A stretch of 64,000 bases of DNA from Chrysemys picta bellii. Lineage: Eukaryota > Chordata > Testudines > Emydidae. Numbering within the stretch: position 1 is the stretch's first letter; each line of letters opens with the position of its first letter. The translations under genes and the position numbers were made by a program. Below are positions 5,698 to 62,598 of this stretch, piece by piece. The stretch is from NCBI RefSeq assembly GCF_011386835.1, contig NC_088795.1:104530434-104594433 (forward strand), given 5' to 3'. The notes beneath the pieces were generated by a model, which saw only the letters and a program-made list of their open reading frames with translations, was not told the DNA's origin and ran no database searches.

Positions 5698-5839
5698 TCC
5701 ATTCTATATGCATCCGAAGAAGTGGGCTGTAGTCCACGAAAGCTTATGCTCTAATAAATTTGTTAGTCTCTAAGGTGCCACAAGTCCTCCTGTTCTTCTT
5801 TTTGCGGATACAGACTAACACGGCTGCTACTCTGAAACC
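5698..5839 (+). mobile_element. Penelope-like element 3' tail, isolated copy
   Basis: This 140-bp segment is the complement of the 3' tail that follows the GIY-YIG open frame at 32790-33746. Shared stretches include the region around GCATCCGAAGAAGTGGGCTG and the one around AGTCTCTAAGGTGCCACAAG. It continues past the point where the 32.5 kb copy stops, ending near CTGCTACTCTGAAACC, as does the copy at 39.7 kb. No open reading frame remains. It is a 5'-truncated, dead insertion. The DNA transposon at 5869 starts only about 30 bp downstream. Confidence 0.85.
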
Positions 5840-6040
5840 TTACAGTAACGATAATAACACATTGGTTACACTGCTCTACAGCCAAAACGCTTCTGAAATA
5901 AATGTACTCAAACTTTACTAATTCTGGGTCACTGAGAAGAAAAATGATGCTTAAAATTGTTGATTGGCTCTAGTTTTCAAGATATGCTATTGAGTCAGTA
6001 TATACGACCCTTGACTTGGGAATGGCGGAGGATAAGTGAG

Positions 6041-6049
6041 TTATAAAGG
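6041..6049 (+). promoter_or_regulatory. TATA-like box of the CACTG transposon
   Basis: TTATAAAGG stands about 320 bp before the start codon of the 560-codon gene and inside the transposon. It is the clearest core-promoter candidate there. The assignment rests on sequence and position only. Confidence 0.4.
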
Positions 6050-6150
6050 GAAGGGATCTCATTTTAAACCAGAAATGACTAAAATACATCTTTGACTGGA
6101 TCTAGGACACTGGGTGTGGACAGTACTTGCTTTTTAGGCAAAACAATGAA

Positions 6151-6250
6151 TGATGCAATCTGAAGCTGGTATTGCGTCATATATGATATGAATTGCATCA
6201 TGTTATTCCTAGAAGTTATGGATGATGCAATCATAACAAAGCTTGCATCA
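6151..6250. promoter_or_regulatory. Cluster of five TGATGCAAT-type 9-mers
   Basis: Exact TGATGCAAT occurs at 6151-6159 and 6223-6231 on the + strand and at 6192-6200 on the minus strand. One-mismatch versions on the minus strand are TGACGCAAT (6171-6179) and TGATGCAAG (6242-6250). The 9-mer fits the known C/EBP-ATF composite response element consensus (TGATGNAAN), used by ATF4 and C/EBP factors. The cluster lies between the TATA-like box and the start codon. It could instead be a repeated transposase-binding region. No such cluster is seen near the right end of the element. Confidence 0.6.
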
Positions 6251-6368
6251 CTCTGCTGAATAAATTGCCCTATATCAGCTCTAGAAATCATACAGTGTCG
6301 TACTCTCTTATTTGTCAGTGTTTGATTTTGCAAAGGGACACATTTCTGTTTAGCCAAAGTGAGCAGAG

Positions 6369-8051
6369 ATGCCTCGTACTTGTGTGAACAGTGCAGATAA
6401 CTTCTGCTATGTTTGTGGTGAAGTGACTTTTGCATCACAAAAACGCAGTATAACCACTATGGTTAAGAAAGCCTATCACCTTTATTTTGGCTGCAAAACT
6501 GGAGATCAGGACAAGAGGTGGGCCCCACACATATGCTGCAACACTTGTGCAACAAATCTTCGCCAGTGGTTGAACAGGAAAAGGAAATCTATGCCTTTTG
6601 CAGTGCCAATGATTTGGAGAGAGCCAACAGATCATACCAGCAATTGTTACTTCTGCATGGTGCCTCCAGTTGGGAAAGGTGTGTCAAAGAAGAAAAAGTG
6701 GATTGTGCATTATCCAAACATTCCATCAGCTATACGCCCAGTACCCCACAGAGAAGGACTGCCAGTTCCTGATGCACCAGAATCATTCTCACTTGAGTCA
6801 GACGAGGAAGAGGAAGAGGATGAAACTTCTGGTCCTGAATCATCAATGTCACAGGACCCACATTTTCTCCCATCCTCGTCCTCTCAACCACACCTCATAA
6901 CACAAGTTGAACTGAATGACCTTGTCAGGGATTTGGAAGTACCCAAGAGTAAGGCCGAGCTGTTGGGCTCCAGACTACAGCAGTGGAATTTCCTGGCAGG
7001 TGATGTTAGGGTTTCCATGTTCCGTGACCATCAAAAGGATCTTGTCCCATTCTTCTTCATGGAAGGTGATCTTGTAGCCTGCAACAACATCGATGGTGTG
7101 ATGGCAGCCCTCAATCCAGATGAGTGGAGACTGTTCATTGATTCATCGAAGACGAGTCTTAAAGCTGTTTTACTGCATAATGGCAATGATTTGCCATCAA
7201 TTCCAGTTGGTCATGCAGTCCATATGAAGGAAACCTATGACAACATGAAACAACTTTTGAGGTGCATAAACTATGACCAACATCAGTGGCAGCTTTGTGG
7301 CGATTTGAAGGTTGTTGCTCTCTTGCTTGGTCTGCAGACTGGATACACAAAGTACTGCTGTTTTCTCTGTGAATGGGATAGTCGTGCAAGAGATTTCCAC
7401 TACATCAAGAAAGATTGGCCACTCCGACAGTCATTGGAGCCTGGCAGGAAAAGTGTTCAGCATCCACCACTTGTTGAATCAAGGAAGATTTTGTTACCAC
7501 TCTTACACATCAAGCTGGGTCTGATGAAGAACTTTGTCAAGGTCATTGACAAAACACAAGCAGCTTTCAAGTACCTCCGTGGAAAATTTCCAAGGTTAAG
7601 TGAAGCTAAGATAAAGGAAGGTGTCTTTGTTGGTCCTCAGATTCGTGAACTTCTTCGAGATGATGCATTTGACCATGCACTGCGTGGCAAGGAAAAGATG
7701 GCATGGAAATCCTTCCAGTTAGTGGCAATAAATTTTCTCGGAAACAACGAGGCAGACAACTACAGGTTGTTGGTGGAAAACCTCCTCAAGGCATACAAAA
7801 GCCTTGGCTGCAACATGTCACGAAAGATAAATTTTTTGCACTCTCATCTAGATTTTTTTCCACCGAACTGCGGAGCAGTGAGCGACAAGCACGGCGAGCG
7901 ATTTCACCAGGACGTTGCAACAATGGAGAAACGCTATCAGGGCAAATGGAGCCCATCAATGTTTGCAGACTATTGCTGGACAGTGACAAGAGATGCTCCA
8001 TTTAATGAATACAGGAGACAAGCCAAGATGCACCGAGTAGACACTGAATAG
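6369..8051 (+). CDS. Intact 560-residue transposase-like protein, cysteine-rich N-terminus
   Basis: This is a single uninterrupted exon. It probably acts in the nucleus as the transposase of the surrounding element, inferred from its position between inverted repeats. Residues 13-60 hold C13, C16, C56, C57 and C60, and C93/C96 follow: a zinc-finger-like, likely DNA-binding region. Residues 143-175 are an acidic/serine linker. The rest looks like a catalytic domain: D258 (LFID), D312 (CGDLK) followed by a C330/C331/C334 cluster, and E510 (HGERFHQD) are candidate DDE residues, though this triad is my proposal. The start is the first ATG after the leader and fits a fair Kozak context. An AATAAA lies 27 bases past the stop. 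I recall close relatives in many arthropod genomes and some vertebrates, annotated only as uncharacterised. An intact frame suggests fairly recent activity or selection. Confidence 0.85.
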   Translation: MPRTCVNSADNFCYVCGEVTFASQKRSITTMVKKAYHLYFGCKTGDQDKRWAPHICCNTCATNLRQWLNRKRKSMPFAVPMIWREPTDHTSNCYFCMVPPVGKGVSKKKKWIVHYPNIPSAIRPVPHREGLPVPDAPESFSLESDEEEEEDETSGPESSMSQDPHFLPSSSSQPHLITQVELNDLVRDLEVPKSKAELLGSRLQQWNFLAGDVRVSMFRDHQKDLVPFFFMEGDLVACNNIDGVMAALNPDEWRLFIDSSKTSLKAVLLHNGNDLPSIPVGHAVHMKETYDNMKQLLRCINYDQHQWQLCGDLKVVALLLGLQTGYTKYCCFLCEWDSRARDFHYIKKDWPLRQSLEPGRKSVQHPPLVESRKILLPLLHIKLGLMKNFVKVIDKTQAAFKYLRGKFPRLSEAKIKEGVFVGPQIRELLRDDAFDHALRGKEKMAWKSFQLVAINFLGNNEADNYRLLVENLLKAYKSLGCNMSRKINFLHSHLDFFPPNCGAVSDKHGERFHQDVATMEKRYQGKWSPSMFADYCWTVTRDAPFNEYRRQAKMHRVDTE

Positions 8052-8077
8052 GACTAGTTTTTTGCCTTTTGTTTCAT

Positions 8078-8083
8078 AATAAA
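8078..8083 (+). terminator. Poly(A) signal AATAAA after the 560-codon gene
   Basis: A canonical AATAAA hexamer lies just after the TAG stop and inside the transposon, about 300 bp before its right end. Confidence 0.7.
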
Positions 8084-8559
8084 TGTTATTTATATAACCC
8101 TTTTGCTGATTTTTAAAGTGTTACATAAACAGGACAGGTGAAATATTATCATGTAAAGCAACCATAAACACATGAAAAGACCTAGGTTTATAATTTATGA
8201 TTAAAACTGTACTATCTACACAATATACATAGACATAAAATGTAAAAACTTAAATATCTTAGAAACAGTAGCCAATCAGTTGTTTTAATTGTCATATTTG
8301 AATTCAGCACATCAAAATACATAATAAATAGCACAATTTATCTCTGAAGCAGACGACTTCTCAAAAATTGTAGACCAGTGTTATATTCTGTTCCAGAATT
8401 GTGACCCAGCATCCGGATTGCTTTCTTTGTTACAGCTGAATATCAGGCTTAAAGCTTTAGGGATTTTTATACAACAAATCCCAAAGCACTTTCCTGGTCA
8501 GTATGCAGTATTTCTTTCCATTTAGCAAATATTCCATCTTCTCACTCCTTGCTATGAGA

Positions 8560-32510: not shown

Positions 32511-33757
32511 AAAGAACAGGAGTACTTGTGGCACCTTAGGACTAACAAATTTATTAGAGCATAAGCTTTCGTGGACTACAGCCCACTTCTTCGGATGCAT
32601 ACAGAGTGTAATAAATATTGAGGAGATATATATACACACATACAGAGAGCATAAACAGGTGGGAGTTGTCTTACCAACTCTGAGAGGCCAATTCAGTAAG
32701 AGAAAAAAAACTTTTGAAGTGATAATCAAGCTAGCCCAGTACAGACAGTTTGATAAGAAGTGTGAGAATACTTACAAGGGGAGATAGATTCAATGTTTGT
32801 AATGGCTCAGCCATTCCCAGTCCTTATTCAATCCTGAGTTGATTGTGTCTAGTTTGCATATCAATTCCAGCTCAGCAGTCTCTCGTTGGAGTCTGTTTTT
32901 GAAGTTTTTCTGTTTTAATATAGCCACCCGCAGGTCTGTCATTGAATGACCAGACAGGTTAAAGTGTTCTCCCACTGGTTTTTGAATATTATGATTCCTG
33001 ATGTCAGATTTGTGTCCATTAATTCTTTTGCGGAGAGACTGTCCGGTTTGGCCAATGTACATGGCAGAGGGGCATTGCTGGCACATGATGGCATATATCA
33101 CATTGGTAGATGTGCAGGTGAACGAGCCCCTGATGGTATGGCTGATGTGATTAGGTCCTATGATGATGTCACTTGAATAGATATGTGGACAGAGTTGGCA
33201 TCGGGCTTTGTTACAAGGATAGGTTCCTGGGTCAGTGGTTTTGTTCAGTGATGTGTGGTTGCTGGTGAGTATTTGCTTTAGGTTGGGAGGTTGTCTGTAA
33301 GCGAGGGCAGGTCTGTCTCTCAAGATCTGTGAGAGTAAAGGATCATCTTTCAGGATAGGTTGTAGATCTCTGATGATGCGCTGGAGAGGTTTTAGTTGGG
33401 GGCTGAAGGTGACAGCTAGTGGTGTTCTGTTATTTTCTTTGTTGGGCCTGTCTCGTAGGAGGTGACTTCTGGGTACTCGTCTGGCTCTGTCAATCTGTTT
33501 TTTCACTTCAGCAGGTGGGTATTGTAGTTTTAAGAATGCTTGATAGAGATCTTGTAGGTGCTTGTCTCTATCTGAGGGATTGGAGCAAATGCGGTTATAT
33601 CTTAGAGCTTGGCTGTAGACAATGGATCGTGTGGTGTGTCCTGGATGGAAGCTGGAGGCATGTAGGTGCTTGCATTTGGAAAGGAAGATGATGTCTGTCT
33701 GTATCTGTACGAGTTTTTTCATGAGGTTGATGGATTTCCACTCCATACGGCTAAGAA
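32511..33757 (-). mobile_element. Penelope-like element, 5'-truncated, minus strand
   Basis: The stretch contains an open frame for the C-terminal part of the Penelope-like polyprotein (32790-33746) and, on its left, the 3' untranslated tail (32511-32789). The tail is shared with 5698-5839 and with the hairpin at 39.7 kb. Upstream reverse transcriptase sequence is missing, so the insertion is truncated. Confidence 0.85.
32790..33746 (-). CDS. Penelope-like polyprotein C-terminus: reverse transcriptase end, linker, GIY-YIG endonuclease
   Basis: The 318-codon frame is open throughout but lacks the reverse transcriptase core. Residues 1-90 are the tail of the reverse transcriptase, with HPGHTTRSIVYSQ followed by ALRYNRICS, a signature of the family. 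C178, C183 and C186 belong to the cysteine-bearing linker. The GIY-YIG nuclease starts at VIYAIMC (216-222), followed by MYIGQTGQ (229-236) and R240 with H245 in LRKRINGHKSD; E260 and N304 are further candidate active-site residues. In intact elements this nuclease nicks target DNA for reverse transcription. The first ATG is internal to the ancestral protein, so it need not be a real start. Alone it cannot transpose. The intact frame implies a young insertion. Confidence 0.85.
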   Translation of the reverse strand: MEWKSINLMKKLVQIQTDIIFLSKCKHLHASSFHPGHTTRSIVYSQALRYNRICSNPSDRDKHLQDLYQAFLKLQYPPAEVKKQIDRARRVPRSHLLRDRPNKENNRTPLAVTFSPQLKPLQRIIRDLQPILKDDPLLSQILRDRPALAYRQPPNLKQILTSNHTSLNKTTDPGTYPCNKARCQLCPHIYSSDIIIGPNHISHTIRGSFTCTSTNVIYAIMCQQCPSAMYIGQTGQSLRKRINGHKSDIRNHNIQKPVGEHFNLSGHSMTDLRVAILKQKNFKNRLQRETAELELICKLDTINSGLNKDWEWLSHYKH

Positions 33758-36700
33758 TATGCTAAGTAAATTAAAGATCAAAATATATAGGATCTTGATT
33801 AGGAAGCCTTGATGTATGCATCAGAATGCTGACCAATCAGGAAGAGAGAATAACATCTACTTCACATCTACTTCACATTAGGATGCTCAAGTGAACATTT
33901 GGTAAGATGAGAGCTGATAGGCTATGAAGTGAAATGTTATGAGCCATTATGCAGACAACCATCATTATAGAAAAGCTGAGTGAGTATCAACTGAGATGGA
34001 AGAGTTGTCTGTTATGGCATGATGTGGGAAATGTTGGTTAGAGAGCACAAGAGCTAGTAGTCATGGGACAAAGAACAGGAGGATGACCTAGAAAAAGGTG
34101 ATTCAAGATGCAGAAGGAGGACATAAAGAAGGCTGGTGTTTTGGAAGATGTACTTGACAAGAACACTTACTTGGAGAGATGAACAACAAGAACCACTGAC
34201 TCTGATTGATGGGACAAGGTGAAAAAGAAGCAACAGCACATTGGCAAGTTATATGGCTGCAGGTGCAGCCCCACTACATCACATGTCTGGGATATTAAAG
34301 TCCCATGGCCCCTTCACTGACCTTTCTCAGGTCCTGACAAACCCAATGGGGAGACCCCTTTTACTGCATACTCGGTGTGCCCATAGCTTCCATTGCAGCT
34401 TAAACAGGGATTCAAGCCATGTGGAAGGCACTGTGACAGCTGTCTGCCCCACAAGCCATTGACACCCAAAGAAAATAATGATAGGAGTTTTGAGATTTCA
34501 GGAATCCAAAAGGGCAGTGGTTTGTCTTCCAGAAAAATGAGACAGCATAAAGTAATTATATTCTACATATAGTAGGTTAATTCAGAAAGAAGGGGAGGAA
34601 TTGCTATTGGTTTTGAAAGAGTCTATAAAAGACATGAGCTGATCTCAGATTTGGAAACAAAACTGAGCCTGGAGCCTAATGAAAAGGAGATTAAAACATT
34701 TTTGACTGCATAGTTTGGGGCAGTGCAATGTAAATGTGGTACTGTCTGGTTATTTATACAAAGCACATGCTGTAAAATCTGTGTACAATAGAATGAAGTG
34801 GAAGTATAGCACCAATGTGGCAGAGAAGCAGATTGGCTGCATCTAAAAAGAAAAAGAGCTGTCAGACAAGTATTTCCTTTGTTCCCCAAACTGACAAGTA
34901 TAGTGATTCTTTTAATGGTGTGTGCATGAGTGAGATACCTTTCAAGAAAAAAACAACAAAAGAAAACAGCACCGCACTGCACATACCACGTAAAAACATA
35001 TATGAATAGAAAATGTGCAGAACCCTTTGAGCTCATTCAAGGAGTAAACCAACTAGCATTAAGTTTTATATAAACGGGATAAATTCAGCCATGCAGGAGA
35101 GTGGGATCTATAGAAGAGAGAAAAAGTATGTCTAAAAGAAGAAATTACATCTCCAGACTGGATTGAGAAGAAGGGACAGCCAAAAAATAAGTGAAAGATA
35201 AACATGCAAATTAAAACTGTCATGGGAAATGCAAGTCCTAGAGCATTGAACACGATAGATTATGAAATACTTATTCAAATAAAGGAAGCTTGTAAATGGG
35301 CTACTGATCATCACAAAAGTGCAAAAAGAGTAAATATTCAGCACAGTGCAAAAGGATTTAGCCACACAATTAAAAAAAGGTCAGCCCTCCAGAAGTGCAG
35401 TGGTATGGCATTGGCATCTCTTTCAGTTACAGTTACTTCTATACAGTGACCCTTAGATCCATTGTAAAATGTGGATTCATCTTATAGAGTTGGTGTAAAT
35501 GACTCCTGCATTCATTGTATAGTAGGAGCTGGTGCCTATTCGAAATCGTATTTCTATAGCAGACCTTCAGCAAACAATTAAAAAAATTACTTACTGTGAG
35601 GCAGCTGTAGAACAAGCAAAACATTGTAGACAATCTTATTAGGTCTTAACATTTCCCAAATCTCATCCCACAAAATGACATGTTTATTTTGGTATAAGTG
35701 ATAGAGCATTTGAATTAGAGGTTAAATAATGGTATAGTTAATAAAAGAGCAACTCAGATCCTTTAAACACAGCTGCAATGTTCTTAGAGGACTTACCCCT
35801 CCAGCACGCTTTATTTTGTACAACCAACTGACACATCACTATTACCTTTATCCCCAGGAAATTAGCAAACTCAAAAGGTCTTGGTGTTAGCAAAACTCGG
35901 GCAACCAGAGTATGAACCATAGCAGAACAGTCAGCTCTAATGCATTGGTGTGGTGGCATTACTAAAAAATTGGAAACAAGAGAGTTGTGGCTATTAAAGA
36001 GCTGTTGCAGTGAAGGAGCACCAGTATTCACCACCTAACAGCAGGAGGTGGGAAGTAAGGAAGGCTGATATGAATGGGGAAACTTGAGCACAGTCTGAGC
36101 TATTGGGTAAGCAATGGTCACCAGCAACGGCCACATTGTATTCAAAGGGGGGAAGTCTCAACTACAGTCGCTCCACTGGAATGCTGGGTCTGTTCCTCAG
36201 TGCATGTCAGCTCAAAGTGGGATGATAGGGAAGTATATGGGACCAACTCTTTGTTCTTTGTTTTATACCATATCTAGCACAATGGTGTTGTGGTCCATGA
36301 CTGGGACTTCTAGAAGTAGCTGCAATGCAAACATATTAATATAGAGATATCTGTTTTATCTATCAGCATATCTTTTTTGTTTCTTTTAATGATTTCTTTT
36401 AATTTTGAGACTGAGTCAGATTTCCAGTTGGTCTCATGTCTAAGAATACATAGAAAATGTTTAATATTTAATAAAACAGATGTCTTGCTATTACAGTCAG
36501 ACAGTACAGCTACTTGAAATTTGATGTATTTTTAGTAGACGTTTTCCTCAGAAAAAAAATTGTAAATTATTTTGGTTGAAATAAATCTGTTGCTAAGAAG
36601 TCTACGGACTGTGCAATTTTTACCATTGAAACTAATATATATTTCCTGAGTGTCTGACTTTTGGAATCCCTTGTGAAATCCAAAATGTCCTGTTTGTTTT

Positions 36701-50013: not shown

Positions 50014-50693
50014 AAATCATAGAATCATAGAATCATAGACTATCAGGGTTGGAAGGGACCTCAAGAGGTCATCTAGTCCAACCCCCTGCTCAAAGCAGGA
50101 CCAATTCCCAACTAAATCATCCCAGCCAGGGCTTTGTCAAGCCAGGCCTTAAAAACCTCCAAGGAAGGAGACTCCACCACCTCCCTAGGTAACGCATTCC
50201 AGTGTTTCACCACCCTCCTAGTGAAATAGTTTTTCCTAATATCCAACCTGGACCTCCCCCACTGCAACTTGAGACCATTGCTCCTTGTTTTGTCATCTGC
50301 CACCACTGAGAACAGCCGAGCTCCATCCTCTTTGGAGCCCCCCTTCAGGTAGTTGAAGGCTGCTATCAAATCCCCCCTCATTCTTCTCTTCTGGAGACTA
50401 AACAATCCCAGTTCCCTCAACCTCTCCTCATAAGTCATGTGCTCCAGACCCCTAATCATTTTTGTTGCCCTCCGTTGGACTCTTTCCAATCTTTCCACAT
50501 CCTTCTTGTAGTGTGGGGCCCAAAACTGGACACAGTATTCCAGATGAGGCCTCAACAATGTCGAATAAAGGGGAACGATCATGTTCCTCGATCTGCTGGA
50601 AATGCCCCTACTTATACAGCCCAAAATGCCGTTAGCCTTCTTGGCAACAAGAGCACACTGTTGACTCATATCCAGCTTCTCGTCCACTGTGAC
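50014..50693 (-). mobile_element. CR1 LINE, 3' 680 bp, inserted into the pyrimidine-rich repeat
   Basis: The left edge shows three copies of the 8-mer AATCATAG (50015-50038), the characteristic CR1 3' end on the minus strand. The open frame of ORF2 occupies most of the rest. The right edge, after CCACTGTGAC, is the 5' truncation point. Confidence 0.95.
50112..50687 (-). pseudogene. CR1 ORF2 C-terminal fragment, 191 residues, open
   Basis: The protein has the CR1 C-terminal order: [74 protein letters not shown] and [20 protein letters not shown]. The frame is uninterrupted, so this insertion is much younger than the CR1 at 26.9-28.3 kb. It lacks the endonuclease and reverse transcriptase core. 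The apparent ATG start is internal to ORF2, so no natural product is expected. Confidence 0.92.
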
Positions 50694-51120
50694 CAGTTAA
50701 CTTAATCTTCCGTGCTTCCTGGGTCCAGCAGAGAGATAATTGAGAACATAGGAGAGACAGCCTTCTTACACTTAACTCAAGTGCCCAGTCCCAAACCAAC
50801 CCATAGGAGCCCAGAACTGCAATTGCAGGGAATGTCCTGCTCAACATCAGGCTGGGACATGCCCATTGCAGACAGACTCTTCAGGAAATTTAACTGAAAA
50901 TCTCTAGCAAATCTCTGCTCATCATGTGCAAACAGTCACAGGACATTTTTCAAAGGTGTATAACTTGGCCAAACTGTGACATAGTTTCATGGGGATAGTA
51001 AAAGGCACATGACTGACACAATGGTCACCTCTCTCCTCTCTGCCAAATTTCAAGGGTCTGCTCCAAAGCATGGGAGCCCTACGGTTCCTCAAAGAAAAGG
51101 GCAACAATCTTTTTTAACAC
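50694..51120. repeat. Right half of the CR1-interrupted repeat
   Basis: GAGAACATAGGAGAGACAG, then TGCAATTGCAGGGAATG, then CATCATGTGCAAACAG parallel 23.0-23.2 kb in the same order. Together with 49480-50013 this restores the layout of the first copy once the CR1 is disregarded. Confidence 0.55.
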
Positions 51121-60910: not shown

Positions 60911-61364
60911 TCATACTCCAGTTCAATCATAGGCACCTGGGCAGGCATGCTTTGTCTCCTGGAGACTCAGTCCTGCCGGCAGTCCTATTGAACCGTCTTG
61001 ACGATGATGGCTAGCATTCGTAGTACAGTATCTTCTGCCAAGCACCCAGAAGATGCCGAGGGCTATCAGTCATGCTGCACCGTCTGCTGCCAGCTTAAGT
61101 TGTAAAAAGTAGATGGACCAGATTTGTTCTGTATTCATTTGCTTCCCTCTCCCTCCGTGAAATCAACGGCCTGCTAAACCCACGGTTTTGAGTTCAATCT
61201 TTGGGGGGGCCATTCTGTGTGACAGTTGTTTGTGTTTCTCCCTGATGCACAGCCACCTTTGTTGATTTTAATTCCCTGTACCTGTACGCCATGTCGTCAG
61301 TCGCCCCTCCCTCCCTCGTCAGTTTCGCGCCTTTTTTCAGACCAGACGCCATAGCACTGGGATC

Positions 61365-62598
61365 ATGGAGCCCGCTCAGATCACCGCGGCAATTATGAGC
61401 ACTATCTACACCATGCACATTGTCCTGGAATATATGCAGAGCCAAGAAATGCAAAGCAAAACCAGGACCAGCCGATTAGGCGATTGCAGCACGGCAACGA
61501 GAGTGATGAGGAAATTGACATGGACACAGCCCTCACACAAGGTACGGGCCCCAGCAATGTGCAAATCATGGTGTTACTGGGGCAGGTTCATGCCGTGGAA
61601 TGCAGATTCTGGGCCCAGGAAACAAGCACAGACTGGTGGAATTGCATTGTGTTGCAGGTCTGGGATGATTCCCACTGGCTGCGAAACTTTCACATGCGTA
61701 AGGGCACTTTCATGGAACTTTGTGACTTGCTTTCCCCTGCCCTGACGCGCCAGAATACCAGGATGAGAGCAGCCCTCACAGTTGAGAAGCGAGTGGTGAT
61801 AGCCCTGTGGAAGCTTGCAATGCCAGACAGCTACCGGTCAGTCGGGAATCAATTTGGAGTGGGCAAGTCGACTGTGGGGGCTGCTGTGATCCAAGTTGCC
61901 AGGGCAAAGACCTGCTGATATCAAGGGTAGTGACTCTGGGAAACGTGCAGGCCATAGTGGATGGCTTTGCTGCAATGGAATTCCCAAACTGTGGTGGGGC
62001 GATAGACAGAACCCATATCCCTATCTTGGCACCGGAGCACGAAGCCACCGAGTACATAAACCGCAAGGGGTACTTTTCAATGCTGCTGCAAGCCCTGGTG
62101 GATCACAAGGGACGTTTCACCAACATCAAAGTGGGATGGCCAGGAAAGGTACATGATGCTCGCGTCTTCAGGCACTCTGGTCTGTTTCGAAAGCTGGAGG
62201 AAGGGACTTTCTTCCCAGACCTGAAAATAACCATTGGGGATGTTGAAATGTCTATCATGATCCTTGGGGACCCAGCCTACCCCTTAATGCCATGGCTCAT
62301 GAAGCCGTACACAGGCAGCCTGGACAGTAGTCAGGACCTGTTCAACTACAGGCTGAGCAAGTGCCGAATGGTGGTGGAATGTGCATTTGGACATTTAAAA
62401 GCGTGCTGGCGCAGCTTACTGACTCGCTCAGACCTCAGCGAAAAGAATATCCCCATTGTTATTGCTGCTTGCTGTGCACTCCACAATATCTGTGAGAGTA
62501 AGGGGGAGACATTTATGGCGGGGTGGGAGGTTGAGGCAAATCGCCTGGCTGCTGATTACGCACAGCCAGACACCAGGGCAGTTAGAAGAGCACAGTAG
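61365..62598 (+). pseudogene. Harbinger (HARBI1-like) transposase with two frameshifts
   Basis: The gene reads from ATG at 61365 (MEPAQITAAIMS), changes frame between about 61455 and 61490, continues in the frame of 61484-61918 (VEKRVVIALWKLA, SVGNQFGVGKSTVG), and changes frame again near 61910 into the frame ending at 62598. The first long part holds the helix-turn-helix-like region; the last holds the DDE nuclease: D in GAIDRTHIPI (about 62005), D in GDPAYPL (about 62270) and E in ECAFGHLK (about 62378). Total length, about 410 codons, is normal for the family. The glycine after the first Asp is Arg here. The frameshifts should block a full product, though sequencing error cannot be excluded. 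Host HARBI1 descends from this family, but the context here is a transposon. Confidence 0.85.

Follow-up and report, generated by a model that had tools for sequence, protein, structure and literature searches.

What kind of DNA transposon lies near the start of this stretch of turtle DNA, and in what state is it? The stretch, a window of 64,000 nucleotides from Chrysemys picta bellii (contig NC_088795.1), carries an element that the original prediction called nearly pristine and of unclear superfamily. Our results differ on both points. It is very probably a full-length Chapaev3 transposon with a single exon (Chapaev group, CACTA/Mirage/Chapaev (CMC) or CACTA/Mirage/Chapaev/Transib (CMCT) clade), which has decayed and whose own enzyme is probably dead. 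Its superfamily is not unclear, because it bears almost every published hallmark of Chapaev3.

Ends and target duplication

The element and its ends were placed as follows.

5869..8380, plus strand: whole element, 2,512 base pairs (bp), CACTG...CAGTG
5869..5880, plus strand: left terminal inverted repeat, CACTGCTCTACA, matching the right end at 11/12 bases
8369..8380, minus strand: right terminal inverted repeat, CACTGGTCTACA (minus-strand letters), matching the left end at 11/12 bases
5869..5995, plus strand: left subterminal region, with inverted similarity to 8248-8380
8248..8380, minus strand: right subterminal region, with inverted similarity to 5869-5995
5866..5868, no strand: left TTA of the target duplication (TWA type), G5865 before it
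8381..8383, no strand: right TTA of the target duplication, T8384 after it

Re-alignment of the outermost 12 bases gave the same inverted match, 11/12, as had been predicted. The predicted inverted similarity over 110–130 bp was also recovered: a local alignment of the two 170-base ends covers 127 and 133 bases with a score of 67, which was reached by none of 500 random 170-base pairs from the window (top random score 45). Exact matches to the pattern CACTGNTCTACA within the window are confined to the two element ends. Near matches are common, with 31 in the window at up to two mismatches against 20.6 expected.

The TTA reported on both sides is present, and this duplication is read from one copy alone. 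Beyond it, the five bases flanking the element differ between the two sides, so that the repeat consists of TTA only. The duplication of Transib elements is 5 bp, and membership in Transib by duplication length was rejected on these grounds.

Assignment to Chapaev3

The marks of the transposase were read from alignment A1, which consists of 56 rows: the window protein and 55 proteins picked by hand from 120 listed relatives. At positions 488, 493 and 507 it holds 53 letters, with three rows gapped.

6369..8051, plus strand: transposase gene, a single open frame of 560 codons and a stop
6042..6047, plus strand: TATAAA string upstream of the gene
8078..8083, plus strand: AATAAA string 3' of the stop codon
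6405..6548, plus strand: N-terminal zinc domain, C13-x2-C16 ... C57-x2-C60, from the alignment; ZAD-like by predicted fold
6645..6656, plus strand: second zinc-type motif, C93-x2-C96, Cys in 56/56 and 55/56 rows
7115..7116, plus strand: four-residue gap at the junction between residues 249 and 250, filled in the other 15 of the 16 printed rows
7140..7142, plus strand: D258, putative first catalytic Asp, in 56/56 rows and within the predicted strand 253-259
7302..7304, plus strand: D312, putative second catalytic Asp, in 56/56 rows; aligned without gaps to RAG1 D708, at a weak score
7359..7370, plus strand: C(2)C motif, C331-x2-C334, 19 residues past D312, Cys in 56/56 and 55/56 rows
7503..7508, plus strand: LH motif, L379-H380, with H380 in 55/55 letters
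7830..7847, plus strand: H(4)H motif, positions 488 and 493, His in 52/53 and 53/53; Asn488 in this copy
7887..7889, plus strand: codon 507, putative catalytic Glu, Glu in 52/53; AAG (Lys) in this copy

As predicted, the gene runs through its 560 codons without a break. The predicted TATA-like box and poly(A) signal hold as strings, with a further AATAAA at 8323; they are string matches only.

According to the account of Chapaev3 in PMC4079192, its elements have 5'-CAC...GTG-3' termini and a TWA duplication with A before and T after. CACTG...CAGTG agrees with the termini, TTA in this one copy with the 3-bp TWA duplication, and T8384 with the reported site rule. The size range of Chapaev3 (554–562 amino acids, usually one exon, 2.3–2.5 kb) likewise fits a protein of 560 amino acids in one frame and an element of 2,512 bp. 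The C(2)C, LH and H(4)H motifs are present in the family as sampled by A1, this copy itself having N488, and so is the DDE triad (D258, D312 and E507), where this copy has K507. The N-terminus carries a conserved C2-C2 zinc-type domain, which may be the 'Chapa' domain, as a domain is named in PMC4411706. Which residues serve as zinc ligands is suggested by these conserved patterns.

Among Chapaev3 families, Merrow, Garfield and Conan, as far as PMC4079192 describes them, resemble the element in their CAC...GTG ends, TWA duplication, transposase of ~560 amino acids, C(2)C, LH and H(4)H motifs, and length of 2.3–2.5 kb. This copy differs from them in the G before its left TTA and in its losses of conserved residues. 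The genes of Merrow and Garfield have two exons there (~78 and 478–484 amino acids; PMC4079192), and membership in either is disfavoured because the gene in the window is a single open frame. In two relatives, P0078 and P0124, the predicted starts (MPFAV) lie at the equivalent of residue 75, near the published exon border at ~78 amino acids; hence, some near relatives may carry the intron of the two-exon genes.

Our literature search on Chapaev3 together with turtle found nothing, and the word 'turtle' is absent from the main text of PMC4079192. No superfamily of the Chapaev3 kind was seen in the accessible part of the painted turtle genome paper (PMC4054807). In the accessible parts of the literature that joins Chapaev, turtle and DNA transposon, Chapaev concerns insects and anole.

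Two points weigh against our assignment and its corollary of a dead enzyme. First, G5865 precedes the left TTA where the Chapaev3 rule wants A, although this is one copy; G5865 may have arisen by subsequent mutation, or the rule may genuinely have exceptions. Second, E510 and E520 are conserved in 53/53 letters and are alternative candidates for the catalytic Glu. An alternative explanation would be an undescribed superfamily or lineage inside the CACTA/Mirage/Chapaev/Transib clade, with the same fold but outside Chapaev3. The exceptional base before the left TTA would suit it, as would the profile searches: the window protein matched no family in Pfam and NCBIfam, and the 56 relatives gave nothing beyond scattered single weak matches. 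No profile pointed to a well-described superfamily with termini of another kind. However, the silence of Pfam is the state of the library, because at least 1,979 relatives exist, and the termini, TWA, protein and element lengths, three motifs and single exon are those of published Chapaev3. We therefore consider an undescribed lineage very improbable and retain the assignment to Chapaev3.

Fold and relation to RAG1 and Transib

The original prediction of a CACTA/Mirage/Chapaev-type transposon with a 3-bp duplication was right. In structural alignments with HzTransib, BbRAGL and mouse RAG1, the catalytic domain matches the RAG1/Transib type at ~12% identity. The spacing D312-19-C331-2-C334 is identical to D708-19-C727-2-C730 of RAG1, and hhalign aligned this stretch with RAG1 over 24 gap-free columns at 38% identity, with a weak E of 0.089. 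With the C-terminal piece of RAG1, hhalign obtained no alignment. There, the order in RAG1 is H937-4-H942 and then E962 (residue numbers read off a match to a 1,040-residue PDB chain), and that of the family is H488-4-H493 and then E507. By this likeness, E507 would be the catalytic Glu; it is the first residue of a predicted helix (507-522). In a second H-4-H pair, at 508/513, the leading His is conserved less well (H508 in 47/53).

The Transib-type fold is thus common to RAG1, Transib and the transposase in the window. A difference is that no second gene of the RAG2 kind was seen inside the element. Mirage elements have a duplication of 2 bp, and CACTA/EnSpm and Mirage elements and their proteins are larger. 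CAC-type ends and C(2)C and H(3–4)H motifs are shared by CACTA/EnSpm, Mirage and the window element, as far as PMC12730594 describes these groups.

The family would move by a cut-and-paste mechanism. Both subterminal ends would be bound by the zinc domains at the N-terminus of the transposase, and the RNase H-type domain (D258, D312, E507) would cut at CAC/GTG. The element would then be joined to a TWA target cut with a stagger of 3 bp. We infer this cutting and joining from the duplication and from the fold, which is that of RAG1/Transib.

Decay of this copy

The description 'nearly pristine' does not stand. Compared with P0001 (534 amino acids), the closest relative, the window protein shows 24 differences in 530 aligned positions. 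At these, most of the 52 further rows of A1 that were used side with P0001 in 18 cases, with neither in six and with the window in none. Two of the differences fall at almost invariant sites in the catalytic domain: the window protein is the sole deviant among 53 letters at both 488 (Asn) and 507 (Lys). Moreover, four residues are gone shortly upstream of D258. The Lys codon AAG directly follows GAC, and would fit CpG decay.

The transposase of this copy is probably dead, even though its frame is still open, because the putative catalytic Glu and one putative zinc His are replaced. Taken together, the tally of 24 differences, the replacements at 488 and 507 and the four-residue gap point to what looks like an unconstrained relic, its frame open by chance. 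Alternatively, the frame might be open because the host kept (domesticated) the gene. Its 560 codons without interruption would agree with this, and the Chrysemys relative carries a gene annotation. Yet both inverted repeats and the duplication remain attached, the family majority opposes the window at 18/24 of the differences from P0001, two of them at nearly invariant residues, and the annotated Chrysemys protein ends early, at 370 amino acids. We give domestication hardly any credence and favor a relic. Such a copy would have inserted and then decayed without visible constraint. Its ends may be usable by an intact transposase, and later movement would be possible solely with help from an intact copy.

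Relatives and probable horizontal spread

The relatives of the protein, at least 1,979, are spread across several animal groups. Among the matches listed, Chrysemys picta supplies the closest relative with a name. The one arthropod named there, the firefly Pyrocoelia at 63%, agrees with the arthropod relatives mentioned in the original prediction. A tree built from 39 proteins pairs the window and Chrysemys proteins (99/88), and P0001 joins them (99/87). P0123 and a protein of the lamprey Lethenteron join next, with 99/98 for all five; the pairing of P0123 with lamprey is weaker (92/70). Outside this clade are the relatives from frog, electric fish, firefly and leech.

Outside a frame-shifted stretch, the lamprey protein has 89.0% identity with P0001 (363/408), 87.2% with P0123, 85.9% with the window protein (373/434), 83.8% with the Chrysemys protein, 74.9% with P0002 and 58.4–60.5% with the frog, fish and firefly relatives. 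That stretch of the lamprey protein matches the +1 frame of the window at 30/33 residues (bounds and counts taken by hand from the printed alignment) and at 33/42 over the whole alignment. The alignment scores 183, and none of 200 shuffles exceeded 46. The +1 frame is non-coding, yet it matches lamprey; the DNA itself should therefore be very alike. The lamprey protein sits on a 13.8-Mb contig, which would make contamination of that assembly less likely.

Lampreys and jawed fish split ~500 million years ago, and horizontal transfer among animals has been published for three other Chapaev3 families (both in the parts of PMC4079192 available to us). Horizontal transfer between distant animals, raised as a possibility in the original prediction, is likely, and is the best reading of the turtle–lamprey likeness in these sequences, and this element would have arrived horizontally. 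Vertical descent, with selection keeping the turtle and lamprey copies alike, would be consistent with relatives in several animal groups and with the potential conservation of transposase function. However, the likeness reaches into the out-of-frame stretch (30/33), lamprey falls in one clade with the turtle copies (99/98) that excludes frog, electric fish, firefly and leech, and its 89.0% identity to P0001 far exceeds its 58.4–60.5% to the frog, fish and firefly relatives. Hence, vertical descent seems improbable, and horizontal transfer is preferred.

Other elements in the window

Other repeats are present in the window. A transposase remnant at 61355-62598 (plus strand), presumably of the Harbinger type, matches PF13359 DDE_Tnp_4 at 61786-62595 (E 4.1e-34). 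What is likely its upstream part (61355-61918, no Pfam match) is read in a different frame, so a frame shift may have disrupted the gene. An open frame at 32793-33761 (minus strand, 323 amino acids) has a GIY-YIG domain (E 2.3e-5), and we take it to be probably the end of a Penelope-like retroelement. Another at 50112-50696 (minus strand, 194 amino acids) has no Pfam match at E 0.01; we assume that it resembles the tail of the reverse transcriptase protein of a long interspersed element (LINE). Just upstream of the Chapaev3 element, ~5716-5839 (plus strand) presumably resembles a turtle tRNA-derived short interspersed element (SINE). An Rfam scan of the window gave no match.

The zinc domain and ZAD

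The N-terminal zinc domain resembles the ZAD domains of insects by predicted fold alone. Sequence similarity to ZAD (zf-AD) was not significant: 1/56 and 1/53 members matched at E 0.068, among chance matches. A link between Chapaev and ZAD was not found in the accessible part of PMC9810180. A true kinship between the Chapaev3 domain and the ZAD, which stands at the head of large families of C2H2 transcription factors in insects, seems rather unlikely to us. If it held, ZAD would be another DNA-transposon domain recruited by hosts, as is thought for THAP. Moreover, ZAD has a pairing role, which would then hint at how the transposase joins its two ends.
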